Notes under the pieces: generated by a model
The model's input: the letters and a program-made list of their open reading frames with translations, nothing else
Databases searched by the model: none
What the model was told of the DNA's origin: nothing
Shown here: positions 16,635 to 32,940 of the stretch, in pieces
Position numbering within the stretch: position 1 is the stretch's first letter
Layout: each line of letters starts with the position of its first letter
IMG/VR virus record: IMGVR_UViG_3300032164_000030
Location: 1-39,320 of that record
DNA length: 39,320 nucleotides
Source: a virus
Strand: one strand, 5' to 3'
Position numbers and translations under genes: made by a program

Positions 16635-16826
16635 CTAAATATCGCCGTCGTCTATTTCTTGTTGGAGAATATCTATTTCTTTTTGGAGTTTATTCATTAC
16701 AAGGTTGATAATGTTTTTAGCATCTTGTAAGGACCTTTTATCTCCAATTAAAAGAAGTTGTCTAACCTCCGAAAGTTCTCTTTTTTTGTTTCTTAAGTAA
16801 TTTCTCAGTCCGAAAGTAGTAAACAT
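16635..16826 (-). CDS. Coiled-coil small protein, 63 aa
   Basis: Start overlaps the upstream stop (TAATG). Basic N-terminus, then an almost continuous helix with heptad spacing (ELSEVRQLLLIGDKRSLQ, NLVMNKLQKEIDILQQEIDD). Likely a dimeric accessory protein of the DUF2786-like gene it follows. Function unknown. Confidence 0.55.
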   Translation of the reverse strand: MFTTFGLRNYLRNKKRELSEVRQLLLIGDKRSLQDAKNIINLVMNKLQKEIDILQQEIDDGDI

Positions 16827-17560
16827 TAATTTCCTCCTGCCGCCTTTATCTTTTTATTTGCAGATAAATCAACCAAACTACCATCAGTATAACCTTTAGA
16901 AAAAGCAACGCCACTACTATACTTCATACGAACATATTTTCCTTTTCCAAAATCCATTTTCTTAACTTCTTTATCAACCATAGGTTTAACCATAAGAACT
17001 AAAGCTTGACAACCTTCCATGTTGCCCAACATTTCTTGCTTCAATTTCTTCGCACCAGCAAAGATGGCACTACCCGCACCTTTTCGATATGAATTGGCTT
17101 GGCTAGCTCCACTAATAGATCTTTCGGCTTTACGCTTTTTCAGGAGCGTTTCGATTACATTTTTTAAATAGGTCAATGTCCGGCGCGCCGCCTCTACATC
17201 ATCCGCTAAACCAATGCCTCGATATACCTTTTTAGTAACATTGGTACCTTTAATTCCACAAACCGAACATTCGGTATATTTGCTACTGTACACAAATACA
17301 TCAAACAATTCGGCAATAGTACCACGTAAATATAAAAAGTGTGCCGGTTCGCTACCGGCAAATGGTTCGCATAGATCGGCATGCACCACAACAAATGGTG
17401 AAGTGGTACCTATTTTAGTTAATTTTGAAAGGTCGATGTTGTACTTTTTGACTAACTCCGCGGCTTTTGCCGCAGCTAAAGCCGCTTCTGCTTCCGTCGT
17501 AGTCGTATCTCCGGCAAGAGCTAAAAGGGCTCGTATTTTCCGATCTAAATTAATATCCAT
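16826..17560 (-). CDS. DUF2786-type protein, 244 aa
   Basis: The N-terminal 45 residues (DRKIRALLALAGDTTTTEAE, then AALAAAKAAELVKKYNIDL) match DUF2786, followed by a longer C-terminal domain of the type usually paired with it (GSAIFAGAKKLKQEM, then SSGVAFSKGYTDGSLV). A Cys pair (ECSVCGI) lies mid-protein. DUF2786 proteins are frequent in phages and mobile elements, but their activity is not established. Overlaps the upstream gene by 11 bases. Confidence 0.8.
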   Translation of the reverse strand: MDINLDRKIRALLALAGDTTTTEAEAALAAAKAAELVKKYNIDLSKLTKIGTTSPFVVVHADLCEPFAGSEPAHFLYLRGTIAELFDVFVYSSKYTECSVCGIKGTNVTKKVYRGIGLADDVEAARRTLTYLKNVIETLLKKRKAERSISGASQANSYRKGAGSAIFAGAKKLKQEMLGNMEGCQALVLMVKPMVDKEVKKMDFGKGKYVRMKYSSGVAFSKGYTDGSLVDLSANKKIKAAGGN

Positions 17561-18020
17561 AATCTTGATTCTCCATGTATTCTACATACCTTTCGTCCTC
17601 ATTATGATGCTCGTAAGCTCGCATCATTCGGGCACCAAGGCGTGCCAACATTTCTTCGATGATTTCTAACCGAAGGTTTCGATTTTCCCTTTCATTTTCT
17701 CTTTCTTTAATGATGCGTAGGTCGCGTCCGGTACCATTACACACCTCACATTTTTGTGTTGAGGTATCATCATCTTTATCCTCAATATTGTCAGTGTTGT
17801 AAATGTATCCGTCTCCATCACATTCCGAACATTCAGTTCCATCATATCGATCATCACCATCTTCAAAAGCCAATTGACGACGTAGGTTTTCTTCTTCTCT
17901 GGCGAGATAGATATTAGACCATTCCAATGCTAAAGCATTTAGCCTCGGTGTTGCTTCCTCAATTTGTTCTTCTGTTTGGTACAAATTACAATTATCAAAA
18001 AATGTCCAATTTCTACTCAT
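17550..18020 (-). CDS. DnaJ-type zinc-finger protein, 156 aa
   Basis: Two CxxCxGxG-like motifs, CSECDGDGYIY and CEVCNGTGRDL, 28 residues apart, form a rubredoxin-like zinc site as in the DnaJ Cys-rich domain. They are flanked by long charged helices (REEENLRRQLAFEDGDD, KERENERENRNLRLEIIEEM). No J-domain is present. Such truncated DnaJ-finger proteins occur in phages; the binding partner is unknown. Confidence 0.7.
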   Translation of the reverse strand: MSRNWTFFDNCNLYQTEEQIEEATPRLNALALEWSNIYLAREEENLRRQLAFEDGDDRYDGTECSECDGDGYIYNTDNIEDKDDDTSTQKCEVCNGTGRDLRIIKERENERENRNLRLEIIEEMLARLGARMMRAYEHHNEDERYVEYMENQDYGY

Positions 18021-18270
18021 TTTCCCTCCCTAATAGGAATTTGATCAATTCATCATCGGTGAGTATGAGTTTGCCTGTTTTGGTGCTACGTATGGTAAAC
18101 CCACAATTAGAACACCGAAAACGAGTTCTAATACCATCATAAACATAGATTTCACCATATTTAATATCTAGAGGTGACAAATAAATTTGAGTTACAGTTG
18201 TAACACCAATTTTAACCTCTTCAATATGGTGATTACCGCATTTATGGCACGTAAAATATGGAAAAGACAT
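18013..18270 (-). CDS. Zinc-ribbon protein, 85 aa
   Basis: CHKCGNHHIEEVKIG at the N-terminus and RCSNCGFTIRSTKTG ~45 residues later make a classic two-knuckle ribbon with beta strands between. AAAGGAT before the ATG comes 8 bases after repeat copy 18287-18345, so its translation is preceded by a stable hairpin. Confidence 0.65.
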   Translation of the reverse strand: MSFPYFTCHKCGNHHIEEVKIGVTTVTQIYLSPLDIKYGEIYVYDGIRTRFRCSNCGFTIRSTKTGKLILTDDELIKFLLGRENE

Positions 18271-18286
18271 TACAATTATCCTTTGT

Positions 18287-18345
18287 GAGCTTTAAGGGCT
18301 CATTCATCCCATATTGCTATAGGATCAATGAGGCCCTAAGGCCTC
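18287..18345 (-). repeat. Intergenic long hairpin, family A copy 1
   Basis: On the minus strand GAGGCCTTAGGGCCTC is followed by a central GATCC...GGATG-like pair and then GAGCCCTTAAAGCTC. The two halves can also pair with each other as one long imperfect hairpin. Located between a stop and the next Shine-Dalgarno, with no T-run. Near-identical copies occur at 20124, 20935, 22708 and 24426. Confidence 0.85.
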
Positions 18346-18388
18346 ATATTCTTATTGTGGAGAAAAATCGTCTTCCTCATCAAACGGA

Positions 18389-18739
18389 TCATCTTCCTCT
18401 TTTAAACAAATCACCCGTGAAATCCACAACTACCGCGAGAACTCTTTCGCCCCAAGAACCGGTATTTTTTACCAAAGCATACACAGAATAATATCCATCA
18501 CCATAACCTGTAGCTACAGCGCAACCCAAACCGTCTTTGCCATTTTCTTCATAACCAAAACTTTTTAATGTGGGAGAATCACCCAATACTTTATCACAAA
18601 ATTCATCCCACGTTTTACCTAAGGAGTTGGGTAAACCATTCTCCTTGTGTAGGATATAACATGGGTCTCCAATCCAACAAAGACCAGAATCAACTCCGAT
18701 ATGTCCAACTAATTTCCAATCCGATTTGTTGAGTTTCAT
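18389..18739 (-). CDS. Conserved phage protein (SGLCWIGDPCYI type), probably frameshifted at the end
   Basis: HIGVDSGLCWIGDPCYI and GCAVATGYGDGYYSVYALV match a phage family of unknown function related to DUF4241-like beta proteins. The frame ends LFKRGR, but after TTTAAAAGAGG the alternative frame continues with an acidic tail (EEDDPFDEEDDFSPQ) to 18352, as expected for this family. One A too many at 18400-18403 would explain it. The functional gene is then 18352-18739. Confidence 0.65.
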   Translation of the reverse strand: MKLNKSDWKLVGHIGVDSGLCWIGDPCYILHKENGLPNSLGKTWDEFCDKVLGDSPTLKSFGYEENGKDGLGCAVATGYGDGYYSVYALVKNTGSWGERVLAVVVDFTGDLFKRGR

Positions 18740-18996
18740 ATGCTTAAACCTGCTTCTCTCAATCTGGTACCCAAATCACCATGGGTAAAATGCATATATG
18801 CATCAACCAATTCAGGAAATCCTTTCTTCAATTTATTAAGATTCCATAAATCCGCATGTGAAATGGTTGACATCAACCGACCCTTAAAACTACCAGGATC
18901 AATCATATCGAATCGCCATTCGATGATAGTCTTTTCACCTTCTGTCCAATCGGGACTAGTTAAGAAGGGAATGATATCTTTCAGTTCCGCTGCCAT
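18736..18996 (-). CDS. Conserved small phage protein, 86 aa
   Basis: ATGA overlap with the gene below. STISHADLWNLNKLKKGFPE and LVDAYMHFTHGDLG follow a helical pattern common in phage accessory regions (A-D-x-x-N...L...GFP). No enzymatic motif. AAAGGAG precedes the ATG. Confidence 0.65.
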   Translation of the reverse strand: MAAELKDIIPFLTSPDWTEGEKTIIEWRFDMIDPGSFKGRLMSTISHADLWNLNKLKKGFPELVDAYMHFTHGDLGTRLREAGLSI

Positions 18997-19005
18997 GTTT
19001 CTCCT

Positions 19006-19383
19006 TTAATAGCGCCTAGCCACACCCGTTTGTGCTTTTCCTTTTCTTGCCGCGTGCAATATATCACCAATTTGTTGGGCGTCGAATTTACACACCCTTA
19101 AAGCGAGACCAACAGCCTTACCTGTTTTGGTACCGTTCCATCTTTGTGCTCCGCAATCCATATCAATGTTGTATCGACCATCACCAGCGTAATTACCAAC
19201 AAAAAATGGTACATACTGCATTGGTCTCAGTGACGGAATATCACTAATAGGAATTACTTCAGTGGTTGTACCCTCGGCGGTATATGTTGTTTTACTTAAC
19301 ATCATTTCCGCTAGTCGATAAATATAAAATTCTCCATTCATTAACTGGTCGCATCTGTGAGTTTTTGACTCAAATTTTGGCAT
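19006..19383 (-). CDS. Hypothetical protein, 125 aa
   Basis: GGGAGAT before the ATG; overlaps the zinc-knuckle ORF above by 14 bases. The middle is Gly-rich with a loop FFVGNYAGDGRYNIDMDCGA and the C-terminus is basic. Soluble. No family recognised. Confidence 0.6.
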   Translation of the reverse strand: MPKFESKTHRCDQLMNGEFYIYRLAEMMLSKTTYTAEGTTTEVIPISDIPSLRPMQYVPFFVGNYAGDGRYNIDMDCGAQRWNGTKTGKAVGLALRVCKFDAQQIGDILHAARKGKAQTGVARRY

Positions 19384-19537
19384 AATTTATCTCCCAAAAG
19401 TGATTTCGTTCCGGATCCATACAAACATCTGATGGATGGTTACCTCCACAATAAAAACAACCATCAACATGGAAACCATTTTCATCACTTTCTTCCATGT
19501 GTTTACGGAAAATCTCTTCTTTAGTGTGATAAGGCAC
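19370..19537 (-). CDS. Small zinc-knuckle protein, 55 aa
   Basis: GTG start with AGGA that overlaps the upstream stop. GCFYCGGNHPSDVCMDPERN is a CxxC-x3-H-x4-C knuckle of the CCHC kind, seen in nucleic-acid-binding proteins. Charged N-terminal helix (TKEEIFRKHMEESDE). Shorter than usual gene-finder cut-offs, but coupled on both sides. Confidence 0.6.
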   Translation of the reverse strand: MPYHTKEEIFRKHMEESDENGFHVDGCFYCGGNHPSDVCMDPERNHFWEINYAKI

Positions 19538-19545
19538 GAGTTATC

Positions 19546-19776
19546 CTATTCGGTTAATTCTTCTACAACCAACCATCCACCCCAACACAATTTCTTTCGG
19601 ATACTATTTTCCAAAGATTGGGCATCATTATCCGATTCTACCAATATTTGCCAACCAGTTGAACCATCTGTATATCCTCCTCCTAAAACGGATATACCAC
19701 GTATTTCATGAAGGGCTTGAAGAAGTCTAAGCCTCATCCCCTCTAACATTGTTACCTTATAAATCTTTCGAGTCAT
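19546..19776 (-). CDS. Hypothetical protein, 76 aa
   Basis: GAAAGGA precedes the ATG. Pattern KIYKVTMLEGMRLRLLQALH, then GYTDGSTGWQILVESDNDAQ suggests a ferredoxin-like small fold. The 120-base spacer upstream (19777-19895) has no gene but holds hairpins, including TTGCC/GGCAA at 19822-19837. Family not recognised. Confidence 0.6.
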   Translation of the reverse strand: MTRKIYKVTMLEGMRLRLLQALHEIRGISVLGGGYTDGSTGWQILVESDNDAQSLENSIRKKLCWGGWLVVEELTE

Positions 19777-19895
19777 TATAGTTCCTTTCTTTTTGCTAGA
19801 TTTTAGCGTTTAATACATCATTTGCCTTGACTGGCAATTGCGTTTAGACGCGATTTAAGCTTGATCCGAATGCGCTTTGATACTCTAGCATCAAG

Positions 19896-20111
19896 TTAAT
19901 TCATGTCCGAAATGTTCTCACCAATAGCAACCAAATCTTCTAAAGAGGTGAGTAAATCAATTAAATCGGATTCCTCAAAATTAATATCCTTTTCTATGAA
20001 CACCGTACCGTGTGCCATAGCATTATGGAATCCGATTGCTATTTCCTTAAAGCTTTCACCATCCATTATTAATGAGGAGATAAAAGCCTTCACCACATCA
20101 CGTAGTCTCAT
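19896..20111 (-). CDS. Hypothetical protein, 71 aa
   Basis: The start at 20111 follows AAAGGAAACCA; the upstream in-frame ATG belongs to the repeat hairpin. Helical acidic product (RLRDVVKAFISSLIMDGESF, then EESDLIDLLTSLEDLVAIG). Its leader is repeat copy 20124-20180. No family recognised. Confidence 0.6.
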   Translation of the reverse strand: MRLRDVVKAFISSLIMDGESFKEIAIGFHNAMAHGTVFIEKDINFEESDLIDLLTSLEDLVAIGENISDMN

Positions 20112-20123
20112 TGGTTTCCTTTC

Positions 20124-20180
20124 GAGCTTTAAGGGCTCATTCATCCCATTAACATGGGATCAATGAGGCCCTAAGGCCTC
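20124..20180 (-). repeat. Intergenic long hairpin, family A copy 2
   Basis: Same element as 18287-18345, with the centre ATCCCAT/ATGGGAT pairing around a 4-base loop. Lies between the stop of gene 20187 and the Shine-Dalgarno of gene 20111. Nearly identical to the copy at 20935, including the following AAAGGAAACCA. Confidence 0.9.
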
Positions 20181-20186
20181 AATTAT

Positions 20187-20495
20187 TCACATACCGTATC
20201 GAGAATGTAGAAACACTTCCTTTTTCAAATACCTTTCGAGAATTGGACTATTTTCATAGTTATCGACAAAGGCTTTGACTTTTGGTGAAAGTTTTGGGTT
20301 ATTGGTTTCGATGTAGTTGGCATCCATAACAATCTCTACCACATGACTCTTAGGTAAATCTTTACCATCATTCGCCTGGATGCACTCATAACCGATATAA
20401 TCCCAAGCATGTTGGGCTGCATGACCCAATTCGCGTAGTTCTTCCTGTGTTAGACCAGTTAATGTTAACCAATCAATAATCTTTTTCTTTCTCAT
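20187..20495 (-). CDS. Hypothetical protein, 102 aa
   Basis: AAGGAG before the ATG, 9 bases after the upstream stop. Helical N-terminus (KKIIDWLTLTGLTQEELREL) like a small DNA-binding helical bundle, acidic middle, basic end (LERYLKKEVFLHSRYGM). No signature recognised. Confidence 0.6.
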   Translation of the reverse strand: MRKKKIIDWLTLTGLTQEELRELGHAAQHAWDYIGYECIQANDGKDLPKSHVVEIVMDANYIETNNPKLSPKVKAFVDNYENSPILERYLKKEVFLHSRYGM

Positions 20496-20503
20496 GGTTC
20501 TCC

Positions 20504-20803
20504 TTAATAGTACGGCAAGGTCTGCCTGTCTTTTACGAAAGTCATCAAGGCTATCTCACGGGCCAATTCCACAGCCGCTTTATTCCGTAAATCGAATTCG
20601 CAATGAGAATACCCTATTTGAGCAACCAACATAGCAGCCCAAAATGATTGTTGGATTGTCCTATGTTCTCGTTGGACTCTTTCAAGAATCGCGTTACCTA
20701 TAAATTCTCGATTACCACCATTGAGTTCATCCATAATGATGGAAATAGCATTCGTTACGCGACCTTTAACTTTCTCTTGATATTCGGTCTTGAGCACGGT
20801 CAT
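20504..20803 (-). CDS. Hypothetical protein, 99 aa
   Basis: AAAGGAGT before the ATG. Two or three helices (SIIMDELNGGNREFIGNAIL, SFWAAMLVAQIGY, AAVELAREIALMTFVKDRQ). Overlaps the 51-residue ORF upstream by 38 bases. Family not recognised. Confidence 0.6.
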   Translation of the reverse strand: MTVLKTEYQEKVKGRVTNAISIIMDELNGGNREFIGNAILERVQREHRTIQQSFWAAMLVAQIGYSHCEFDLRNKAAVELAREIALMTFVKDRQTLPYY

Positions 20804-20921
20804 ACTCCTTTATAGATTGAGGTAGGAACCAAAAACCGGTTAAAGGAATACATCTCCAACTAATCCAAAATTCAACCCGATATTTTAGGGTTTCAGGATT
20901 GTAAAGTTTTCGAAATCTCAT
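20766..20921 (-). CDS. Small hydrophobic-core protein, 51 aa
   Basis: AAAGGAAACCAA before the ATG is the same leader as for gene 20111, right after repeat copy 20935-20991. Product MRFRKLYNPETLKYRVEFW with a Trp/Phe-rich centre (ISWRCIPLTGFWFLP) and a charged tail. May be membrane-associated. Function unknown. Confidence 0.55.
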   Translation of the reverse strand: MRFRKLYNPETLKYRVEFWISWRCIPLTGFWFLPQSIKEYDRAQDRISRES

Positions 20922-20934
20922 TTGGTTTCCTTTC

Positions 20935-20991
20935 GAGCTTTAAGGGCTCATTCATCCCATTAACATGGGATCAATGAGGCCCTAAGGCCTC
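20935..20991 (-). repeat. Intergenic long hairpin, family A copy 3
   Basis: Almost identical to 20124-20180. Located between the stop of gene 21007 and the Shine-Dalgarno of gene 20921. No T-run follows, so it is not a standard terminator. Confidence 0.9.
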
Positions 20992-21006
20992 ATACCGTTA
21001 TTCACA

Positions 21007-21351
21007 TTAGATAATTTTTATTCTGTATTTCAATGCTCGGATATTATCATCATATTCCTTTGTAGCATCGGCTAATTCCATTTCGATGGCTTGTATAGCC
21101 TTATTTCGATCTAAGATCAACTTATCCAATTCCAATTTAAGTAATTTTACAGACCTTATATTGGCTAAACCCTCCTCCATGGCCACTCGTATTGATGTAC
21201 CACGGTTCTCCGAAAACATCGTACCCCTAAATTCGGCACAATCCAATATTGTGGACAAGTAAAGCTTTTCCACCAACATGTTAATAAAATGTGCCTCAAA
21301 TTCGGTCAAGGCGACCACTACATCGCGACGTTCATTATCTAATTTCCCCAT
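21007..21351 (-). CDS. Coiled-coil protein, 114 aa
   Basis: AAGGAGAATC before the ATG. Globular N-terminal half (LTEFEAHFINMLVEKLYL) and a C-terminal heptad coiled coil (LLKLELDKLILDRNKAIQ, then AIEMELADATKEYDDNIR). Probably oligomeric. No family recognised. Confidence 0.6.
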   Translation of the reverse strand: MGKLDNERRDVVVALTEFEAHFINMLVEKLYLSTILDCAEFRGTMFSENRGTSIRVAMEEGLANIRSVKLLKLELDKLILDRNKAIQAIEMELADATKEYDDNIRALKYRIKII

Positions 21352-21361
21352 GATTCTCCTT

Positions 21362-21598
21362 TTATTTTACCGCCCGACATTCACTCCAATATTCACACTC
21401 ACATTCCGAAGTCGCATCACACAATGGACACGTATCATCAGGAATACCTTCTCTACGTTGTTCCTCATGTATATCTCCAAAGAACTGGTCCATCAGATCA
21501 AAAAATTCTTCAGGATACATAGGAGGAAAGTTCGTAATACCTTCCTCATCAAAAGCCAAAACTCGGAATCCCTCATATTCTTCAGATTCACAACCCAT
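21362..21598 (-). CDS. Acidic protein with C-terminal Cys cluster, 78 aa
   Basis: Acidic N-terminal two-thirds (GCESEEYEGFRVLAFDEEG, then PEEFFDLMDQFFGDIHEEQ) and a C-terminal zinc-like cluster DTCPLCDATSECECEYWSEC. Starts 2 bases after the upstream stop, so it is coupled. Function unknown. Confidence 0.6.
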   Translation of the reverse strand: MGCESEEYEGFRVLAFDEEGITNFPPMYPEEFFDLMDQFFGDIHEEQRREGIPDDTCPLCDATSECECEYWSECRAVK

Positions 21599-21600
21599 GG

Positions 21601-22008
21601 TTAAAATGGTACCTCACTGTTGTCTCCATCCATATTATTATTAGGGAAGCATTTGTATTGGTGCTTTATTGAGGCGACGATGTCTTCCAATTTTTGGATC
21701 ATATCCTTTACTAAGAAACCTTCTCGCTTCGAATCATGGATAACCCTCCATATGGATTTTTGGAATTTAAATCTAATATCTTCTTCCCTCAGAAATTCTA
21801 ATATATCCTTAGCTGGCTTTAGACCGATTTCAAAAACGGCTCGGATATATTTAAGACTCTGAATCATCTCGGTTATATCCATCCGATTCAATAGTTCATT
21901 CTTATTGAATCGGATTTTAACTAAATCGGAACCCGGAACACCGGTACAAATCACCCATATATCCGGATTACTTGCGATTTTTAATTTATCTTCTGCGGTT
22001 GGGAACAT
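21601..22008 (-). CDS. Hypothetical protein, 135 aa
   Basis: The start at 22008 follows AAGGAGATGT; the longer frame begins inside the hairpin element. Mostly helical (MIQSLKYIRAVFEIGLKPAK, DMIQKLEDIVASIKHQYK), no Cys cluster. The hairpin at 22028-22067 lies directly upstream. Family not recognised. Confidence 0.6.
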   Translation of the reverse strand: MFPTAEDKLKIASNPDIWVICTGVPGSDLVKIRFNKNELLNRMDITEMIQSLKYIRAVFEIGLKPAKDILEFLREEDIRFKFQKSIWRVIHDSKREGFLVKDMIQKLEDIVASIKHQYKCFPNNNMDGDNSEVPF

Positions 22009-22027
22009 ACATCTCCTTGTGAGCAAA

Positions 22028-22067
22028 GGCTCCTTGGATGCTTAAGTGGTTAAGCATCCGAGGAGCC
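22028..22067 (-). repeat. Intergenic 18-bp hairpin before gene 22008
   Basis: GGCTCCT plus GGATGCTTAA pair with TTAAGCATCC plus AGGAGCC around a 4-base loop, with one G-T-type mismatch. A second GGAGCC/GGGCTCC hairpin adjoins it (to 22081). Same position between stop and Shine-Dalgarno as the family A elements, but a different sequence. Confidence 0.8.
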
Positions 22068-22086
22068 CTTCTCTGGGCTCCTCTGT

Positions 22087-22209
22087 TTACAAATTATCCC
22101 ATCGATTGAATCCACACAAAAAACAAATTGTAGATAACCGGCTTTTTTTGGCTCCACAATCAACACATCTACCTATAATCCAATACCAAATTGTTTTAAA
22201 TATATTCAT
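22087..22209 (-). CDS. Small zinc-ribbon protein, 40 aa
   Basis: AGGAAAG 6 bases before the ATG (another ATG two codons earlier is possible). Product MNIFKTIWYWIIGRCVDCGA with ICFLCGFNRWDNL: two CxxC knuckles after a hydrophobic N-terminus. Short but typical of the zinc ribbons in this block. Confidence 0.55.
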   Translation of the reverse strand: MNIFKTIWYWIIGRCVDCGAKKSRLSTICFLCGFNRWDNL

Positions 22210-22243
22210 CGGCATCTTTCCTAGTTAATTTCGTTAAATCTCC

Positions 22244-22402
22244 TCATTCATACTCCGTATCATCAAATGGTTCTCCGCAATTCGATTCTCGGTCGAAGGC
22301 GTCCAAGGCATCAGAGGCTATCTCTATCATTTCCGTGGATGTTAAATTCTCACCATCTCGAATGGATTCCAAAGCATCGATAAGGTGTTGAACGGCTTCC
22401 AT
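22244..22402 (-). CDS. Acidic small protein, 52 aa
   Basis: Helical acidic product (EAVQHLIDALESIRDGENLT, then MIEIASDALDAFDRESN) with a final acidic tail. Starts 5 bases after the broken gene upstream. Could be an antirestriction- or DNA-mimic-like miniprotein by charge alone, but there is no direct evidence. Confidence 0.5.
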   Translation of the reverse strand: MEAVQHLIDALESIRDGENLTSTEMIEIASDALDAFDRESNCGEPFDDTEYE

Positions 22403-22406
22403 TATT

Positions 22407-22695
22407 TTACCCTCTTTCTATTGTGGATTCTCCGCCTTTTGAGGCAATTTCCTCTTGAAGGACTATTGCATCCTTCTTATAATATATCTTACGAGGAAAG
22501 AAATCTTTTGGGAAAGTATCTACCACAGGTTTCTTTGTCAATTACTGCGGTAAATTGCGGATTTACACAAAAGTAGTAGGTTTGTATTACCTCACCTTCA
22601 CCTTAATATAGGAGGTTTAAAGCGTTTTCCGGAGACTCCGCTTCAATCTCAGTAAACACCTCATATATTTCCTGGTGTTTTGTAACATACTTCAT
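22407..22695 (-). pseudogene. Broken small gene (in-frame stop plus frameshift)
   Basis: AGGAGGAT before ATG 22695 opens MKYVTKHQEIYEVFTEIEAE, then SPENALNLLY and an in-frame TAA (22603-22605). The same frame continues convincingly (GEGEVIQTYYFCVNPQF, TAVIDKETCGRYFPK) until a TTTT/AAAA run at 22506-22509. After that the next frame carries DFFPRKIYYKKDAIVLQEEI to 22407. One point change and one extra A would restore a ~95-residue protein. Sequencing error or true decay cannot be told apart here. Confidence 0.5.
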
Positions 22696-22707
22696 AGATC
22701 CTCCTAT

Positions 22708-22766
22708 GAGCTTTAAGGGCTCATTCATCCTATATTGATATAGGATCAATGAGGCCCTAAGGCCTC
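22708..22766 (-). repeat. Intergenic long hairpin, family A copy 4
   Basis: Same arms as 18287 with a TATATTGATATA-like centre. It precedes the strong AGGAGGAT of the broken gene 22695 and follows the stop of gene 22774. Confidence 0.85.
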
Positions 22767-22773
22767 ATAACCT

Positions 22774-23187
22774 TCAACTTCCGTGGAAACGCCTATAATC
22801 TATTTCCAAAAAGATTCTCCATAGCAACCTTTTTGATAATTTACTCATCAGTTTCCATATGTACCACGGAAACATAACCAAAAGGGTTTCTTGAACACGC
22901 CGTTTGACTTCAAACCAATCTTCTGATACGAGTTGGATATGAATTGGCGCGAAGTACGCTTTAAAAACCGCTATGATCGATGGATCCGAATCCATGTAGT
23001 TCTCGTTAACTACCGTTTCGTATCCATTAGCTCCTAACCACGTGAAATCGTTACCTTGATTTTTAACGACCACATCCAAATCGTTGGGATCATCACTTCC
23101 CCAAGCCACGCTCCCCGTGATAAACATGTCCGGAAACTTTCCCCTTAAGGACAACAAGGTTTCCAATTCAGTTTTCCCGATTATCAT
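22774..23187 (-). CDS. Nucleotidyltransferase-fold protein, 137 aa
   Basis: FITGSVAWGSDDPNDLDVVV carries the GS...D-x-D signature of the pol-beta nucleotidyltransferase superfamily. A later strand (PIHIQLVSEDWFEVKRRVQ) would hold the third acidic position. The enzyme class transfers NMP to proteins or small molecules, or acts in toxin-antitoxin pairs; the substrate is unknown. The C-terminal ~30 residues are basic. A paralogue is at 28934-29368. Confidence 0.7.
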   Translation of the reverse strand: MIIGKTELETLLSLRGKFPDMFITGSVAWGSDDPNDLDVVVKNQGNDFTWLGANGYETVVNENYMDSDPSIIAVFKAYFAPIHIQLVSEDWFEVKRRVQETLLVMFPWYIWKLMSKLSKRLLWRIFLEIDYRRFHGS

Positions 23188-23209
23188 AAGTCTCCTTTGT
23201 GAGCCTGGA

Positions 23210-23270
23210 AGCTCCTAAATGCCTCCCTCTAGGAAGGCATTTAGGAGCTTCAGAGTTTCCTCTGAAGCTC
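23210..23270 (-). repeat. Two mutually exclusive hairpins before gene 23187
   Basis: A 15-bp perfect stem (arms 23210-23224 and 23235-23249) and an 11-bp perfect stem (23245-23255 with 23260-23270, loop of 4) share 5 bases of arm, so only one can form fully. It lies between the stop of gene 23278 and AAAGGAG of gene 23187. Confidence 0.8.
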
Positions 23271-23277
23271 CCCTCTT

Positions 23278-23424
23278 TTAGTAACCGAGACCGCGATAGA
23301 TCGCGTAAATCCAACCGCACAATCCATGCCATATCATCCAAAGAATGCTATGGTTTCTATCGAAAGATAGGATCATCGCAATTACTACGCCGAAGCCGAT
23401 AGAAGTTTTAGAGCTTTGTAACAT
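23278..23424 (-). CDS. Small conserved membrane protein, 48 aa
   Basis: AAAGGAAACCAC before the ATG. Product TSIGFGVVIAMILSFDRNHS followed by ILWMIWHGLCGWIYAIYRG: two hydrophobic segments linked by a conserved-looking SFDRNHSILW turn, a pattern I recognise from large phages. The upstream spacer (23425-23588) holds a CACAC-UUCG-type hairpin near 23495 but no gene. Function unknown. Confidence 0.6.
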   Translation of the reverse strand: MLQSSKTSIGFGVVIAMILSFDRNHSILWMIWHGLCGWIYAIYRGLGY

Positions 23425-23588
23425 GTGGTTTCCTTTTTGTTATTTAGTTTAAGATCCAATTAGTTCACACGGAACCAAAAATGCTTAATCACACTTCGGT
23501 GTGAAGTGTTCGCACCAATTACATAATATTTCGCATATATCCTCCTAAAGCCAGACGGCTTTTTAATTATCCTTAATAAAGACAATTA

Positions 23589-23622
23589 AAAAGCCGGAGA
23601 GACTTGCGCCTCTCCGACTTTT
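23589..23622 (-). terminator. Rho-independent terminator (minus strand)
   Basis: On the minus strand AAAAG-T-CGGAGAG pairs with CTCTCCG-G-CTTTT around an 8-base loop and runs into GCTTTTTAATT. It begins about 12 bases after the stop of gene 23635. This is one of the few canonical terminators in the block. Confidence 0.75.
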
Positions 23623-23634
23623 AAGGGATGTTTC

Positions 23635-23934
23635 CTACTTGGCGCCGGCCGCTAGGACCAACTTACGTCCTTCGGTGTATGACCTGTTCGAACACTTCGC
23701 CGCATTCTTCATCAGCCAATCGATTCGGCTGAGCCAGTGGTCGATGATTGTGGTGCACCCCTTAGGATCCACGGCGTGCAATTCGCAGAGGTGGTCACGG
23801 CCTCCCGCTTCACAGTAGAACAGGGCGATTGCCGTTTCGATCTCACGGCCCTGGGTCACGTTCGGATGCTTTCGCATCTCATCCATCATATTACTCATCT
23901 TACACAACGGACATTTCATCCTTGATTTCGCCAC
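23635..23934 (-). CDS. Hypothetical protein with one CxxC, 99 aa
   Basis: GTG start with AGGAGA 7 bases upstream; the longer frame lacks a site. MKCPLCKMSNMMDEMRKHPN at the N-terminus, then FYCEAGGRDHLCELHAVDPK and a helical C-terminus. His/Cys spacing suggests a zinc-bound fold. Higher G+C than the genes to the left. Terminator follows. Family not recognised. Confidence 0.6.
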   Translation of the reverse strand: MAKSRMKCPLCKMSNMMDEMRKHPNVTQGREIETAIALFYCEAGGRDHLCELHAVDPKGCTTIIDHWLSRIDWLMKNAAKCSNRSYTEGRKLVLAAGAK

Positions 23935-23967
23935 GGTATTTCTCCTATGTTGAATTTGTACCATTTT

Positions 23968-24028
23968 GAGTTCTCAGGAACTCATTCATCCCATATTGTT
24001 ATGGGATGAATGAGGCCCTGAGGACCTC
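23968..24028 (-). repeat. Intergenic long hairpin, family A variant
   Basis: CTCATTCATCCCATA and its perfect 15-base complement enclose a 4-base loop; outer parts CCTCAGG/CCTGAG also pair. It keeps the TTCATCCCAT core of family A with different outer arms, which suggests compensatory change of a conserved structure. Confidence 0.8.
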
Positions 24029-24053
24029 TGGTGAGTTTTAATTCACCTTCACA

Positions 24054-24413
24054 TTAGCTAGCGCCGGCGACGAAATTGATCTCAGCAATATCTAGGAGAT
24101 TCCGCGGAAAATCGTCGTCGATGATGATGGTCTCCGCTAGCTGATCTTCTGAATATCCGATCGGCATGATTCTTCCCATCACCAAACTTCTGACAGTTCG
24201 GCCGAATACCACATATTCCGGCCATTTGCTGACTACGTATTCCAGCGCATCTTCCGGAGTCGGCATCTTACTTAGCCTGCCAACCAAATTCGACCCCCTC
24301 GCACACCGGATTCCACCAAGGCGACATGGCATGGATTGATACTCGAAATACCATGCCAATTCACCCTTATATGGACGGATGCGAAGAAATTCCATCAGTC
24401 TCTTACCTTCCAT
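24054..24413 (-). CDS. Hypothetical protein, 119 aa
   Basis: AAGGAGAATGAT before ATG 24413; the longer in-frame start lies in the repeat. Mixed alpha/beta product (FLRIRPYKGELAWYFEYQSM, then MPTPEDALEYVVSKWPEYVV, then MGRIMPIGYSEDQLAETIII). No known motif recognised. G+C-rich. Confidence 0.6.
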   Translation of the reverse strand: MEGKRLMEFLRIRPYKGELAWYFEYQSMPCRLGGIRCARGSNLVGRLSKMPTPEDALEYVVSKWPEYVVFGRTVRSLVMGRIMPIGYSEDQLAETIIIDDDFPRNLLDIAEINFVAGAS

Positions 24414-24425
24414 ATCATTCTCCTT

Positions 24426-24481
24426 GAGCTTTAAGGGCTCATTCATCCCACTCTGTGGGATCAATGAGGCCCTAAGGCCTC
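24426..24481 (-). repeat. Intergenic long hairpin, family A copy 5
   Basis: Same outer arms as the other copies, with a shorter centre (ATCCCAC/GTGGGAT). Between the stop of gene 24488 and AAGGAG of gene 24413. Confidence 0.9.
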
Positions 24482-24487
24482 ATTTAA

Positions 24488-24685
24488 TTATCGGTGAATA
24501 CCGGCTTCCAATTCTTCCTCAAAAGATGCCGAGTTATACTCATCAATCTCGCTCGGCGATTCAGGACCCGATATACATATCGGGTCAATCAGTTCGATGT
24601 GGTTAGTTTTAGCCACACCTTTCACCATCAATGCCAGAAATTCAGCATTTTCCAGATCATCTGTCACCACTTCAAACGTGTACAT
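24488..24685 (-). CDS. Acidic small protein, 65 aa
   Basis: GAAAGGAAATCCA before the ATG. Starts YTFEVVTDDLENAEFLALM and ends in an acidic helix (EYNSASFEEELEAGIHR), resembling small alpha/beta phage proteins. Lies directly downstream of the tRNA group, so it may share their transcript. Function unknown. Confidence 0.6.
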   Translation of the reverse strand: MYTFEVVTDDLENAEFLALMVKGVAKTNHIELIDPICISGPESPSEIDEYNSASFEEELEAGIHR

Positions 24686-24702
24686 TGGATTTCCTTTCGA
24701 GT

Positions 24703-24789
24703 TGGTGGGCGAGGAGAGACTTGAACTCTCACGGGATTACTCCCAACGGATTTTAAGTCCGGTGCGGCTGCCAATTACGCCACTCGCCC
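24703..24789 (-). tRNA. tRNA-Leu (UAA)
   Basis: Acceptor GGGCGAG pairs with CTCGCCC, followed by ACCA encoded in the DNA. The anticodon loop CTTAAAA gives UAA. A long variable arm (GGGAGTAATCCC type) marks a class II tRNA, and the T-loop is GTTCAAGTC. 87 bases including CCA. First of three tandem tRNAs. Confidence 0.9.
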
Positions 24790-25305: not shown

Positions 25306-25315
25306 GTTCTCCTTT

Positions 25316-25400
25316 CTGTGAGACTAGGAAATCATCAAGAATCTTGGTAATTTCCTAGGTTCACAGAAAGGAGATGGAGTTAATAACTCCATCTCCTTTC
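25316..25400 (-). repeat. Two long hairpins before gene 25305
   Basis: First, a perfect 16-bp stem with a 3-base loop (arms 25366-25381 and 25385-25400) that contains AAAGGAG. Second, CTGTGA and CTAGGAAAT pair with ATTTCCTAG and TCACAG (25316-25366), ending next to the real AAAGGAG of gene 25305. The first hairpin begins 12 bases after the stop of gene 25413. Confidence 0.8.
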
Positions 25401-25784: not shown

Positions 25785-25806
25785 ACCCATTCTCCTTTGA
25801 GCCGTA

Positions 25807-25846
25807 GGCTCTTACAATCCTCAATTGCTTGAGGATTTTAAGAGCC
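25807..25846 (-). repeat. 17-bp hairpin before gene 25784
   Basis: GGCTCTTA and AATCCTCAA pair with TTGAGGATT and TAAGAGCC around a 4-base loop with a single mismatch. Followed on the minus strand by AAAGGAG of gene 25784. Same placement as the other pre-gene hairpins. Confidence 0.85.
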
Positions 25847-25887
25847 GGAAGAATCAAATTCTTCCGCGCCCCTACCACACTAACGAA

Positions 25888-26191: not shown

Positions 26192-26217
26192 TGAGGCGGG
26201 CCTTCCAACCCGCCTCA
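26192..26217 (-). repeat. GAGGCGGG hairpin after a stop codon, copy 1
   Basis: TGAGGCGGG and CCCGCCTCA form a perfect 9-bp GC-rich stem with an 8-base loop, 4 bases after the stop of gene 26222. Copies with the same stem are at 27115-27140, 28893-28918 and 29441-29466, always just after a gene. No T-run follows. Confidence 0.85.
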
Positions 26218-27043: not shown

Positions 27044-27157
27044 ATTCTCCTTTCCAATACTTCTTAAAGGACTCCAAAACATCTCAGAGTCCTTTAAGAA
27101 ACACTGGAAGAACATGAGGCGGGCCTCCTAACCCGCCTCACGTCAAACTCTAAGGTT
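27044..27157 (-). repeat. Duplicated ~113-bp leader, copy 1
   Basis: Contains the TGAGGCGGG hairpin (27115-27140) and a ~22-bp hairpin (TTCTTAAAGGACTC pairing with GAGTCCTTTAAGAA) that ends beside AAAGGAG. About 95 percent identical to 29372-29483, though the genes on both sides differ. Confidence 0.9.
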
Positions 27158-27864
27158 TACATGCGACTTACCAAAAACTTAATGGCTTGGTCATATTCGG
27201 ACCAAGGCAAACATTCCGGATGATTCTTTAATTCTTCCGGTTCTCCTTGTAACCAATATTCAACCGGATGTTCTATGCATCCGACGCTGATGTATCTCGG
27301 TCTACCGGAATAAACCAAGTACGGATGGCATTGAATTTGAATTGGTGAGGTTTTGAGTGTAACTCCGTCACCGAGTTTAACTCCGTTACCGAGTTTAACT
27401 TCGTTACCGAGTGTAACTCCGTCACCGAGTTTAACTCCGTCACCGAGTTTAACCCGGTTACCGAGTGTAACCCGGTGACCGAGTATAACTCCGTTACCGA
27501 GTTTAACTTCGTTACCGAGTGTAACTCCGTCACCGAGTTTAACTCCGTCACCGAGTATAACCCAGTCACCGAGTTTAACTCCGTCACCGAGTGTAACCCG
27601 GTGACCGAGTGTAACTTCGTTACCGAGTTTAACTCCGTCACCGAGTGTAACTCCGTTACCGAGTGTAACCCGGTTACCGAGTTTAACTCCGTTACCGAGT
27701 TTAACTTCGTTACCGAGTGTAACCCAGTGACCGAGTGTAACCCAGTGACCGAGTGTAACCCGGTTACCGAGTGTAACTCTGTTACCGAGTATAACTCCGT
27801 TACCGAGTATAACTCCGTTACCGAGTTTAACTTCGTTGATGTCGTAAATCTCCTCCACTGTCAT
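27157..27864 (-). CDS. Hexapeptide-repeat left-handed beta-helix protein, 235 aa
   Basis: ATG at 27864 follows AAGGAGAATAG. Residues ~12-172 are about 27 near-perfect six-residue repeats of the form V-K/T/I-L-G-N/D/H-x, the rule of left-handed beta-helices of the hexapeptide acyltransferase type. The C-terminal ~60 residues (HPYLVYSGRPRYISVGCIEH, then PVEYWLQGEPEELK) resemble the cap of phage proteins of this class. Acyltransferase activity is not assured: the catalytic His is not evident in the repeats, and the role may be structural. Confidence 0.7.
   Translation of the reverse strand: MTVEEIYDINEVKLGNGVILGNGVILGNRVTLGNRVTLGHWVTLGHWVTLGNEVKLGNGVKLGNRVTLGNGVTLGDGVKLGNEVTLGHRVTLGDGVKLGDWVILGDGVKLGDGVTLGNEVKLGNGVILGHRVTLGNRVKLGDGVKLGDGVTLGNEVKLGNGVKLGDGVTLKTSPIQIQCHPYLVYSGRPRYISVGCIEHPVEYWLQGEPEELKNHPECLPWSEYDQAIKFLVSRM
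27355..27838 (-). repeat. 18-bp minisatellite array within gene 27157
   Basis: About 27 tandem units of the type GTAACTCCGTTACCGAGT (plus strand), varying mostly at three or four positions. The array keeps all six frames almost free of stops. Copy number is likely to change by slippage or recombination, always by whole codons (18 = 6 codons). Confidence 0.95.
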
Positions 27865-27892
27865 GCTATTCTCCTTATTCCTTTCAAAAGAT

Positions 27893-28144
27893 TCAATAAA
27901 GGGTGATATGCCACCCATCTCCACAGCGTGTGCAGTTCGCTCCCATAGATCCCGAATCAGGTCCGGCATGACCGGTATCCACCCATCGATGTCCTTTCCA
28001 TCGACATACGATACGGAGAATTCCGTAGCCGATGCGCCCCCAAATGCATTCCGTGTACACGCGGATAATTTTGATCCGCGAGTTTGGACCGCAGGATAAT
28101 TCGTATCCGGCGTCCATACGAATGGACTCCCAAATCTTCATCAT
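27893..28144 (-). CDS. Small protein with C-terminal zinc site, 83 aa
   Basis: ATG at 28144 is 9 bases after GGAGGG; nearer in-frame ATGs are possible. The C-terminus CRWKGHRWVDTGHAGPDSGS, then NCTRCGDGWH is a pattern common in phage proteins (C...GH...GPDG...CxxCG), probably one zinc. N-terminal half is variable and basic. Confidence 0.6.
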   Translation of the reverse strand: MMKIWESIRMDAGYELSCGPNSRIKIIRVYTECIWGRIGYGILRIVCRWKGHRWVDTGHAGPDSGSMGANCTRCGDGWHITLY

Positions 28145-28170
28145 CTTCAGCATCCCTCCTTTCATGGTTC

Positions 28171-28278
28171 ATTTAAGGACTTAATGGGCTTGCCGTTTGA
28201 TGGCCGCATAAATCCTTAAATCAACATTGAAGGGATGGACCTCCAAAGCCTCATGCTAAGGAGGCCCATATGAGCCAA
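28171..28278 (-). repeat. Structured spacer with post-stop element copy 1
   Basis: 28232-28278 (47 bases, GGCCTCC/GGAGGTCC hairpin) is repeated at 29952-29998 with two mismatches. Next to it ATTTAAGGA (28171-28179) pairs with TCCTTAAAT (28213-28221). Order on the minus strand: stop of gene 28279, element, long hairpin, AAAGGAGGG of gene 28144. Confidence 0.8.
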
Positions 28279-28530: not shown

Positions 28531-28600
28531 TGTTTTCTCCTAAACAAATGCCCAAGTTCCATAGTGAAGCAGTGTATACTGGAACCATTGGGTCGCGCAT
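28505..28600 (-). CDS. Possible 31-residue ORF
   Basis: GGAGGCGAA before the ATG; overlaps the next gene by 26 bases. Product begins MRDPMVPVYTASLWNLG. It covers the hairpin whose loop ATAGTGAAGCAGTGTATAC (28560-28578) recurs at 30021-30039, so the sequence may be kept for RNA structure and not for protein. Confidence 0.3.
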   Translation of the reverse strand: MRDPMVPVYTASLWNLGICLGENNDLFNLWR

Positions 28601-28830: not shown

Positions 28831-28892
28831 TTGGGTCTCCTTTGTTCAATTCAGGACTCAATTGTTAAATCCCGATTTCAGCAAAGGAAACA

Positions 28893-28918
28893 TGAGGCGG
28901 GCCTCCTAACCCGCCTCA
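28893..28918 (-). repeat. GAGGCGGG hairpin after a stop codon, copy 3
   Basis: TGAGGCGGG/CCCGCCTCA, extended by CA/TG to an 11-bp stem, 16 bases after the stop of gene 28934. Same loop (CCTCCTAA on the plus strand) as the copies at 27115 and 29441. Confidence 0.85.
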
Positions 28919-28933
28919 TGTCGAGGTTTCTCA

Positions 28934-29368
28934 CTAAAACCAGAGTGGCCCGTGGCCCGCGGCGTTCGCCGCGGCGGCCGATAGGAAGTGCGACCAAATC
29001 TTACTTCGTGTTCGCTTGCTCAGGCATTCCCATTCCGAGCCGGGAAAAAGGAGGATCAACTCCTCCTGAACCTGCCTCTTGAGGTCGAACCAGCCTTCAG
29101 ACACCACCTGTACATGAATCTTATACAGGTCGTGTGTGAAAATTGCCGAGATTGATGGATCGGAATACGATAGTTCCGAGCCACCGTGCTGGTTCAATGT
29201 GAACCCCAGGCGAATAAGACACCCATGGAGGGCGGGTTCGGCCGCGATGAATAAATCCAAATCATTTGGTTCCGAATGCCCCCACGCCGCACTCCCGGTG
29301 ATTTGGATTTTTTGACATTGCCTGCCCAATGCCAATAAAATTTCTAATTCTTCCATATTCAGGGTCAT
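28934..29368 (-). CDS. Nucleotidyltransferase-fold protein, paralogue 2, 144 aa
   Basis: ATG at 29368 follows AAAGGAGAATAGC. QITGSAAWGHSEPNDLDLFI gives the GS...D-x-D core, and SYSDPSISAIF with KIHVQVVSEGWFDLKRQVQ matches the paralogue at 22774 along its length. Substrate unknown. The C-terminus is Ala-rich (SAAAANAAGHGPLWF). Much richer in G+C than its paralogue, so the two have separate histories. Confidence 0.7.
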   Translation of the reverse strand: MTLNMEELEILLALGRQCQKIQITGSAAWGHSEPNDLDLFIAAEPALHGCLIRLGFTLNQHGGSELSYSDPSISAIFTHDLYKIHVQVVSEGWFDLKRQVQEELILLFPGSEWECLSKRTRSKIWSHFLSAAAANAAGHGPLWF

Positions 29369-29371
29369 GCT

Positions 29372-29483
29372 ATTCTCCTTTCCAATACTTCTTAAAGGAC
29401 TCCAAAACATCTCAGAGTCCTTAAAGAAACACTGGAAACATGAGGCGGGCCTCCTAACCCGCCTCATCTCAAACTCTAAGGTT
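29372..29483 (-). repeat. Duplicated ~113-bp leader, copy 2
   Basis: Near-identical to 27044-27157: post-stop TGAGGCGGG hairpin (29441-29466) plus the AAGGACTC/GAGTCCTT long hairpin, then GGAAAGGAGAATAGC and ATG. It even includes the last bases of the upstream gene. Confidence 0.9.
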
Positions 29484-29808: not shown

Positions 29809-29835
29809 GGATCTCCTTTTGCAATTCAAACCACT

Positions 29836-29998
29836 CATTGAATTCCTAAATTCGTCCAGTTTTCCCGCTACCGCGCTATTTCACCGCGGCCCACAGTAAT
29901 TCTCCAGACTCAAATTTAGGAATTCAATGCGGGGCTCGAACCGACAACATGGGGATGGACCTCCAAAGCCTCACGCCAAGGAGGCCCATATGAGCCAA
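29836..29998 (-). repeat. 17-bp long-range inverted repeat with post-stop element copy 2
   Basis: CATTGAATTCCTAAATT (29836-29852) and its perfect complement (29913-29929) enclose 60 bases rich in GCGC pairs. 29952-29998 is the second copy of the 47-base element at 28232. A T-loop-like CGGTTCGAGCC (minus strand, about 29934-29944) lies between, without a full tRNA. No gene seen in 29839-29999. Confidence 0.8.
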
Positions 29999-29999
29999 A

Positions 30000-30245
30000 T
30001 CATAAAGCAGCGCCGAGTTCTATAGTGAAGCAGTGTATACGGGCGCCGGGCGGGCGCGGCGACCACCTATGCAACACGCGGTCCATTCTTACCTCCCCAT
30101 ATCGCCGGTCGTAATCGAAAGAGAGGAAATCCATATACCACTGGATTAGCCTCACCGGCAGCCGCGGCCCGAAAACATCGTAATAGCGGTAGAAATATTC
30201 CGGTCTTATTCTCTTCTCATTTCTGTAGTAGAGACGGTTTTCCAT
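30000..30245 (-). CDS. Arg/Tyr-rich protein, 81 aa
   Basis: ATG at 30245 follows AAAGGAGAATC. Product MENRLYYRNEKRIRPEYFYR, then LIQWYMDFLSFDYDRRYG, strongly basic. The last codons overlap the hairpin whose loop is shared with 28560-28578. Family not recognised. Confidence 0.55.
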   Translation of the reverse strand: MENRLYYRNEKRIRPEYFYRYYDVFGPRLPVRLIQWYMDFLSFDYDRRYGEVRMDRVLHRWSPRPPGARIHCFTIELGAAL

Positions 30246-30274
30246 GATTCTCCTTTCTCCGACGGATTCAACAT

Positions 30275-30381
30275 CCACAGGATTTCAGAGGGATCGAAGC
30301 ATTAGGAGAGTCCGATAGCGTCACGCGACCGCGACCGCGTGAACTTTCTCCAGCATTTCCGATCCCTCTGAGAACCTGTGG
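30275..30381 (-). repeat. Large structured leader of gene 30245 (22-bp stem)
   Basis: 30275-30296 pairs with 30360-30381 over 22 positions with one mismatch. The 63-base interior has its own CACGCG/CGCGTG-type stem. Lies between the stop of gene 30398 and AAAGGAG of gene 30245. Size and branching resemble a regulatory leader RNA. Confidence 0.75.
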
Positions 30382-30397
30382 AGGTTCCCACCGACTT

Positions 30398-30610: not shown

Positions 30611-31060
30611 GTTACTACTCCTTCCATTGTTGAGTTGATACAATCCTTTGTAGAAAGGAAGGATTCTATCAATCCAACAACCGTAAGGACTATTTCAATG
30701 TTTATCGGATTAGATAAAAAGAAGATATTTGGAGAGGAGGAGCGTTCAGAGGAACGCTCCGCGGAAGTGAGGGGTTATAGGGGGCGCCGAGTTCCAAGAG
30801 CCATCCACCGGCGTGAAATGGCCGGTAGGAGTACATGGAAGTGCAGCGGAGCATCAGGTGCCGGGTGATTCCGGAACCTATGTAACGTATATCTGGTTCT
30901 CATTCCATTCACCGAGGTGATAGGTTTATTCATTCCGAGGGATCTTCAATGTCTCCAAGGACTTAGAGGACCGCAAATAAAATTCGGGCAGGGGACGGTT
31001 TCCGTTTCCTGCCGTGTTTTATTCATTATCCGCTCAATCCATGAATAATTATTCATCCTA

Positions 31061-31141
31061 AGGTTCTCAGAGGACTCGGTAGCGTCCGGCTACGCGGTTG
31101 TGATATCCGGGTATGTGGTAGTTCGAGTCCTCTGAGAACCT
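31061..31141 (+). repeat. 18-bp inverted repeat enclosing a tRNA-like fold
   Basis: Perfect 18-bp arms, extendable to 22 with one mismatch. Read on the plus strand the interior has a GTAGC-GTCCG-GCTAC arm, a CGG...CCG arm and a GTTCGAGTC sequence like a T-loop. No standard anticodon arm, so it is not called a tRNA. Confidence 0.65.
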
Positions 31142-31151
31142 CAGGAGTCTT

Positions 31152-31292
31152 CGATTCCTAAAGGACTCTGAGTAGGTTAGAGAATGAGGCGCTGGAGACT
31201 GTGGTGGAGCCCAATGAACATATGAAATGGTTTAGCCCATGGTTACTCCAGGCGCGCTGGCATCCCAGTTGTTCAGAGTCCTTTAGGAATCG
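31152..31292. repeat. 20-bp perfect inverted repeat with 101-base loop
   Basis: Arms 31152-31171 and 31273-31292 contain CCTAAAGGACTCTGA and complement, sharing the AAGGACTC string with the hairpins at 27044 and 29372. The loop holds a GCGCTGGAG/CTCCAGGCGC stem. Confidence 0.85.
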
Positions 31293-31596
31293 GACGGAGA
31301 GGACTTGAGTCCTCGAAGGATCGGTTAAGGTTTCCTTGATCTTAGAACAATGAGGAAGCCTCTCCGTCAAACTCCAAAGGAGAAGAAATAGGATTATTCT
31401 TAGCCGAGTACATCTCAGGATTGCTAGTCCCGCTCACGGCAACGGACTTCAAATGTCCGCTTTCGAATAGGTTCGGTTGTACGGAGGGGTAGTCCATAAT
31501 ACTCCAGAGGGGTAGTCTATAATACTACTAGAGTATTACTCTCCGTGAGCTTTCCAGACTCGTCCATCTTCAATGCACGGACAAGGACTTTCTGAA

Positions 31597-31670
31597 GTCC
31601 GGGAGCTTTTTAAGGACTCGGATTTCCGAATCATTAAAAAGCTCCCGGACCCCCTCAGAGAGGGTCCGGG
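31597..31670 (-). terminator. Terminator hairpin with competing anti-structure
   Basis: On the minus strand CCCGGACCC/GGGTCCGGG (31644-31670) is followed by AGCTTTTT, like an intrinsic terminator, 8 bases after the stop of gene 31679. The T-run and half of that stem also belong to a 17-bp perfect hairpin (31597-31613 with 31634-31650). Only one can form. Confidence 0.65.
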
Positions 31671-31678
31671 ATCAGATG

Positions 31679-32714: not shown

Positions 32715-32940
32715 GGGTCTCTATGGACGTTAAGGCGCATCCAAAAAATTTTTGTGGGGCCTTGGGTCTCTATGGACTTGAAGGAACCGGACTTGAAGGA
32801 ACCGGACTTGAAGGAACCGGACGTTAAGGCGCATCCAAAAAATTTTTGTGGGGCCTTGGGTCTCTATGGACTTGAAGGAACCGGACTGAAGGAACCGGAC
32901 TGAAGGAACCGGACGTTAAGGCGCATCCAAAAAATTTTTT
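32715..32940 (+). repeat. Tandem A-tract/stem repeats with nested 15-bp units
   Basis: GGACGTTAAGGCGCATCC followed by AAAAAATTTTT occurs at 32725, 32819 and 32911. In two copies AAGGC later pairs with GCCTT. Between copies lie three 15-base units GGACTTGAAGGAACC, then one such unit and two 14-base versions lacking one T. Spacing of the long units is 94 and 92 bases. Confidence 0.9.

Follow-up and report, generated by a model that had tools for sequence, protein, structure and literature searches.

The stretch of DNA considered here (the window) is a fragment of 39,320 bases, positions 1 to 39,320 of the IMG/VR virus record IMGVR_UViG_3300032164_000030, and the subject of this analysis is a set of structured elements that lie in the gaps between its minus-strand genes. 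The window is a piece of a distant T4-like phage genome. Structural-type genes occupy the plus strand up to about 11.3 kb, and the region from about 11.7 to 32.3 kb is filled with small genes, mainly on the minus strand and most without known function. Within this region an earlier note had described a family of near-identical hairpins (here HP) with five copies and one variant, and all six are present where it had placed them. The five main copies, 57-60 nucleotides (nt) long, lie at 18287-18346 (before the gene 18013-18270), 20124-20181, 20935-20992 (before a small open reading frame starting at 20921), 22708-22767 (with U-A in the middle helix in place of the C-G of the others) and 24426-24482 (with a shorter middle loop, and C-G where the others have U-A); the variant, at 23967-24029, has altered outer arms (GAGGUCC/GGGCCUC and GAGUUC/GAACUC). 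On the coding strand, which is the minus strand, the main copies read GAGGCC-UUAG-GGCCUC, next AUUGAUCC..GGAUGAAU and next GAGC..GCUC, giving the order arm1 (GAGGCC), arm2 (GGCCUCAUU), a middle hairpin (AUCC..GGAU), arm3 (AAUGAGCC), arm4 (GCUC) and the Shine-Dalgarno (SD) sequence. The arm pattern was matched seven times in the window, against 0.20 matches expected, and none of 100 shuffles reached seven.

Each of the six HP elements follows a stop codon and precedes the next SD, as had been reported. The spacing given there, often 8-12 bases ahead of the SD, needs correction: the five main copies leave only 0-2 nt between their last arm and the SD, and 12-17 nt between that arm and the start codon. 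That all six share the minus strand is also true, although it means little by itself because every gene of the block is on that strand. The sense strand carries no U-run at any of the six, again in agreement with the earlier observation, and a role as plain terminators is disfavoured for the named copies, which lack the U-run and are followed immediately by the SD.

The arms of the HP elements are interchangeable. A long hairpin made of the pairings 1:4 and 2:3 folds at about -30 kcal/mol, and three successive hairpins (1:2, the middle hairpin and 3:4) at about -25 kcal/mol, the pairings 1:2, 2:3 and 3:4 being mutually exclusive. Across the copies the middle helix has one pair that varies between C-G, U-G and U-A and a second, in a hand alignment, that varies between U-A and C-G; in the variant the outer arms have changed together. 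For the long fold, three pairs are changed on both sides, a number reached by 7 of 500 shuffles in an alignment that holds only five distinct rows; the counts for the variant are approximate because MAFFT displaces its first arm by one base. The covariation among the HP copies is genuine, but thin.

The same plan recurs in sequences unrelated to HP. Beyond the elements of the earlier note, at least ten further gap elements of comparable structure were found, and a gap-by-gap reading gave a recurrent order of stop codon, hairpin 1:2, middle hairpin, hairpin 3:4 and SD, with arm2 complementary to arm3. This four-arm plan (type I) fits the HP family and five other minus-strand elements. Those at 22021-22083 and 23201-23272 have an arm4 GCUC 3 nt before the SD; at 23547-23622 hairpin 1:2 is followed by UUUUU in the manner of a terminator, and an arm4 GGCUUU abuts AGGAGG; the type I-like element at 25799-25866, in which GAGCC-UAC-GGCUC abuts AAAGGAG and the pairing of arm1 with arm2 barely overlaps the long stem, escapes the strict detector described below; and the element at 31585-31671 has a terminator-like first hairpin and no SD directly downstream. 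Arm4 ends 0-3 nt before the SD in 9 of the 11 type I elements, the exceptions being the HP variant (22 nt) and 31585-31671, which has no SD nearby. Type II elements, also on the minus strand, lack arm4, and the 3' strand of their long stem includes or abuts the SD. They were found at 25306-25400, where the SD sequence GAAAGGAG is present both in arm1 and as the real SD and arm2 (CUCCUUUC) can pair with either; at 27052-27143, a GC hairpin followed by a 26-pair stem ending at the SD; at 28153-28269, a hairpin followed by a long stem including the SD; at 28835-28921, a hairpin followed by a stem including the SD; and at 29379-29467, a near copy of 27052-27143. Repeat families other than HP are also present in these gaps: D5 and D12 make up 27052-27143 and 29379-29467, D13 is that of 28153-28269, and D5 provides the hairpin of 28835-28921 and stands alone at 26192-26217 (minus strand), before a tRNA-Glu gene.

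Two of these hairpins, at 23589-23622 and 31643-31671, end in U-runs and do resemble intrinsic terminators, and terminator-like sites are in excess in the window (28 on both strands, against 14.4 in shuffles). It could be proposed from this that the elements are transcription terminators or attenuators of single genes; this is very unlikely as a general account, given that no coding-strand U-run follows a GC stem at the HP copies or the type II elements and that the SD comes at once after the element. Nor can the pairing 2:3 be a classical antiterminator, because arm3 is made after the decision to terminate has been taken.

The position of arm1 brings translation into consideration. Arm1 mostly starts 3-15 nt past the upstream stop, within reach of a terminating ribosome, and a translational coupling switch may be envisaged in which the ribosome finishing the upstream gene covers arm1, arm2 consequently pairs with arm3, and the folding beside the SD changes (at arm4, or at the SD itself in type II), with the result that the downstream start would sense upstream translation. 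The mutually exclusive pairings and the duplicated SD sequence in arm1 of 25306-25400 are what such a switch would use. Its predicted sign, however, is opposite in the two types, as formation of 2:3 is expected to release arm4 in type I elements and to hide the SD in type II; modelled SD exposure gave no consistent pattern, and HP18287, the HP variant and 25799-25866 begin 43, 25 and 21 nt past the stop. Coupling is therefore regarded as an unlikely explanation.

The concentration of structure in the block was evaluated by folding gaps of 40-420 nt. Most gaps between 18 and 32 kb gave z values of about -3 to -10, and the plus-strand block is little structured. Strong hairpins amount to 8.57 per 10 kb in 18-32 kb and to none in 1-17.9 kb; elsewhere the density is 0.00-0.26 per 10 kb (phiM12, pf16, CC31, T7, T4, Cr30, Melnitz-3, BUCT-ZZ01 and 80 T4-like contigs). 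A strict four-arm detector called 11 minus-strand sites, of which nine lie in gaps, one overlaps a gene end in part and one falls within a coding tandem repeat; it called no site on the plus strand. When the minus-strand sequence was block-shuffled 100 times, the mean was 0.07 calls and the maximum 1. The same detector yielded 0-1.9 calls per 100 kb in eight reference phages and a single call across T4-like contigs totalling about 0.97 Mb, a count from which phage Pixie was excluded because the detector is ill-suited to high-GC genomes, where chance calls are many. The gp14 relatives (10 plus 80 contigs) lack the four-arm architecture. In seven elements, arm2 binds its own arm3 with a mean of -15.0 kcal/mol, against -7.5 kcal/mol for the arm3 of other elements, and the assignment of each arm2 to its own arm3 ranks first of 5040; these values, like those of the detector, are to be read as specificity and not as formal significance, since thresholds and arms were chosen after inspection.

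Both strands of the elements fold almost equally well, and it has to be considered that they are DNA palindromes without RNA function, present either as mobile repeats of that kind or as template-switching by-products, as the repetition of the HP family might also suggest. Yet in gap stems with a score of at least 12, G-U pairs on the coding strand outnumber A-C mismatches by 47 to 18 (p about 0.001), and by 38 to 14 (p about 0.002) with copies removed, a bias seen only at this score and hence involving some choice of threshold. The order of a strong hairpin first and a weak hairpin last is found on the coding strand only, and the placement falls exactly between stop and SD; an origin as mere palindromes is accordingly considered highly improbable. 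The proposal that selection acts on RNA structure is supported, mainly through findings that go beyond the earlier note, by the coding-strand G-U excess and by the sharing of one architecture among unrelated sequences, from which it follows that fold and position are kept rather than sequence. The RNA structure of the elements is well supported.

How the HP family came to be repeated is indicated by copies 20124 and 20935, which are identical over 71 nt (20111-20181 and 20922-20992), SD included; the family therefore spreads by copying, recently in the case of this sequence. A joint duplication of hairpin and gene was considered and rejected, the genes adjoining the HP copies having no similarity to one another. 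The tRNA-Leu gene (24703-24789) is followed, in the SD region 24683-24703 (minus strand), by CTCGAAAGGAAA, the same sequence that follows HP20124 and HP20935; in sequence terms this may hint that a processed tRNA and an HP element are placed as if interchangeable. Repeated hairpins are known from T4-type phages as promoter early stem-loops (PeSLs), reportedly described by Arbiol in 2010 and by Comeau in 2014. According to PMC4503421, PeSLs are repeated intergenic hairpin cassettes of variable regions, linked to gene shuffling, and the present elements resemble them as repeated hairpin cassettes between genes of a T4-type phage. PeSLs combine a terminator with an early promoter, whereas the HP copies have no coding-strand U-run. 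No sigma-70-type site was found between the HP hairpin and the SD, where there is no room for a promoter because the gap to the gene is only 12-17 nt, although the promoter types of the phage itself may differ. A recombination cassette of the PeSL kind would mean that repeats of hairpin plus SD mainly serve, or result from, the shuffling of a hyperplastic region's small genes, RNA structure being secondary. The 71-nt identity, the families D5, D12 and D13, the SD sequence after tRNA-Leu and the mosaic base composition of the window are consistent with this. It would leave the single plan of unrelated sequences unexplained, promoter-like sites show no excess (19, against 26.6 in shuffles) and the U-run is lacking in the HP copies, for which reasons shuffling as the main explanation is judged improbable.

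Other known systems also bear comparison. The extended start-associated sequences (ESAS) of cluster K mycobacteriophages are inverted repeats that recur through a single phage genome, directly ahead of start sites; a role in expression has been proposed for them and a function not established (PMC3203893, PMC12699233). Inverted repeats immediately upstream of the start sites of many genes are found here too; each ESAS, however, is a lone imperfect repeat of 17 bp linked to a conserved start-associated sequence (SAS) motif (PMC3203893, PMC12699233), whereas the window holds several unrelated sequences built on one four-arm plan. The SAS motif (GGGATAGGAGCCC) was not found at the start codons, and the SD regions read AAAGGA, AGGAGG and AAGGAG. 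In Straboviridae a simple intercistronic hairpin, GAGGCC-UUCG-GGCCUC, lies between genes 45 and 44 of phage ZZ1 and is also present in CC31; HP hairpin 1:2 is nearly identical to it in sequence and likewise stands between two genes, but the Straboviridae hairpin is single, without middle hairpin, arm3, arm4 or exclusive pairings. Based on sequence features, the elements would belong with the phage intercistronic RNA hairpins, set apart from PeSLs and ESAS because the U-run of the former and the SAS motif of the latter were not encountered. Repeated hairpins at phage start sites are already known from ESAS, PeSLs and T4-type intercistronic hairpins, with a role that is mostly unsettled; in the present case, sequence-unrelated elements of one genome repeat a single architecture with mutually exclusive pairings.

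With fold and position conserved, the range of functions narrows to processing of the message, protection of ends or coupling. Position, strand bias and disregard for sequence fit a function at the level of the message. Taken together, the data suggest that the phage punctuates long messages with RNA structures between genes. RNase III acts on long RNA duplexes of about two helical turns, and the stems of 17-33 positions found here, some with internal mismatches, provide this. Phage T7 offers a parallel, its 10 RNase III sites being intergenic hairpins at which the polycistronic message is cut into smaller units (PMC9135205); by analogy, the present elements may work in the same mode, although the four-arm detector found no match in T7. 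The elements are probably mRNA-processing or exonuclease-barrier sites copied as a cassette, and among the roles proposed earlier RNase processing or protection of the mRNA 5' end seems the most plausible. In the proposed mechanism, the spacer between stop and SD can fold either as one long helix (2:3 plus 1:4) or as three hairpins (1:2, middle and 3:4), and the long helix would be cut by an RNase III-type endonuclease of the host that acts on double strands. Arm2 would then re-pair with arm1, forming at the 3' end of the upstream message a strong hairpin able to block 3'-5' exonucleases, and in type I arm3 could re-pair with arm4 as a small hairpin beside the SD at the 5' end of the downstream message; the HP family would have spread through the block as a copied hairpin plus SD. 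The double partnership of every arm would follow from the need of each half to remain folded once the helix is cut. When a cut in the middle loop was modelled, the stop-side half retained a hairpin of -12 to -36 kcal/mol in all 15 elements.

Cleavage followed by refolding is favoured because it explains the two-partner arms, the strong stop-side hairpin and the structures that fill the space between stop and SD. In its full form, with an RNase III-type cut, refolded halves and spread of HP by copying, intercistronic punctuation is put forward tentatively, at somewhat less than even confidence. The further idea that many independently evolved four-arm elements re-pair after cleavage, protecting both ends and being interchangeable in place with tRNA genes, is rather doubtful. 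If the processing model is true, it would represent a compact conversion of one message into single-gene messages with protected ends; if the re-pairing of four arms is also true, a new organisation of phage gene expression. Several points weigh against the cleavage model. Hairpin 3:4 is weak and disappeared from 4 of the 10 downstream halves that were modelled, and the modelled cut changed SD exposure in both directions, which led to the rejection of SD release by cleavage as a general rule. When G-U and A-C were counted more loosely, in every weak stem, the difference did not reach significance (68:52, p=0.17); detector thresholds and arms were picked with the elements in view, and all elements come from one contig. 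No relative carrying the HP family was found: among viral contigs there was no HP member, one of the HP sequence patterns matching seven unrelated palindromes; among genome contigs there was no match; and in phage records only the arm1:arm2 hairpin was matched.

As to the remainder of the window, a neck protein (10136-10801) about 40% identical to gp14 of T4-like phages and a homing endonuclease (5791-6543) are encoded. No close relative of the window was found among viral contigs, nor any relative of the block proteins 16826-17557, 31682-32266 and 37696-38826, and those hairpin-block genes that were tested are, by sequence comparison, nearly orphan. An Rfam scan of the window returned only four tRNAs at the gathering threshold; sub-threshold matches (microRNAs and others) were dismissed as generic hairpin matches. 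Four minus-strand regions (29822-29943, 30270-30386, 31056-31146 and 31152-31292) have long stems of 23-33 positions enclosing 45-95 nt of further structure; none has an Rfam match, and they are possibly separate non-coding RNAs. Base composition is mosaic, with about 52% GC in 1-3.5 kb, about 48% in 23-32.5 kb and 33-41% elsewhere, which may reflect recombination or a chimeric contig, with a small chance that the assembly is chimeric. Two minus-strand paralogues (22774-23187 and 28934-29368; 39% identity), each adjoining a structured gap element, share a nucleotidyltransferase-like GS-AWG-DLD motif. The minus-strand gene 27157-27969, which matches phrog_5353, a family of unknown function, contains about 25 tandem 18-nt repeats encoding LGxxVx hexapeptides, and its product looks like a left-handed beta-helix. 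At 32715-32939, adjoining the end of the hairpin block, lies a pair of long direct repeats that have short tandem units (GGACTTGAAGGAACCGGACT), and a 46-nt repeat containing ATAGTGAAGCAGTGTATAC, separate from the hairpin families, occurs at 28552-28597 and 30013-30058.

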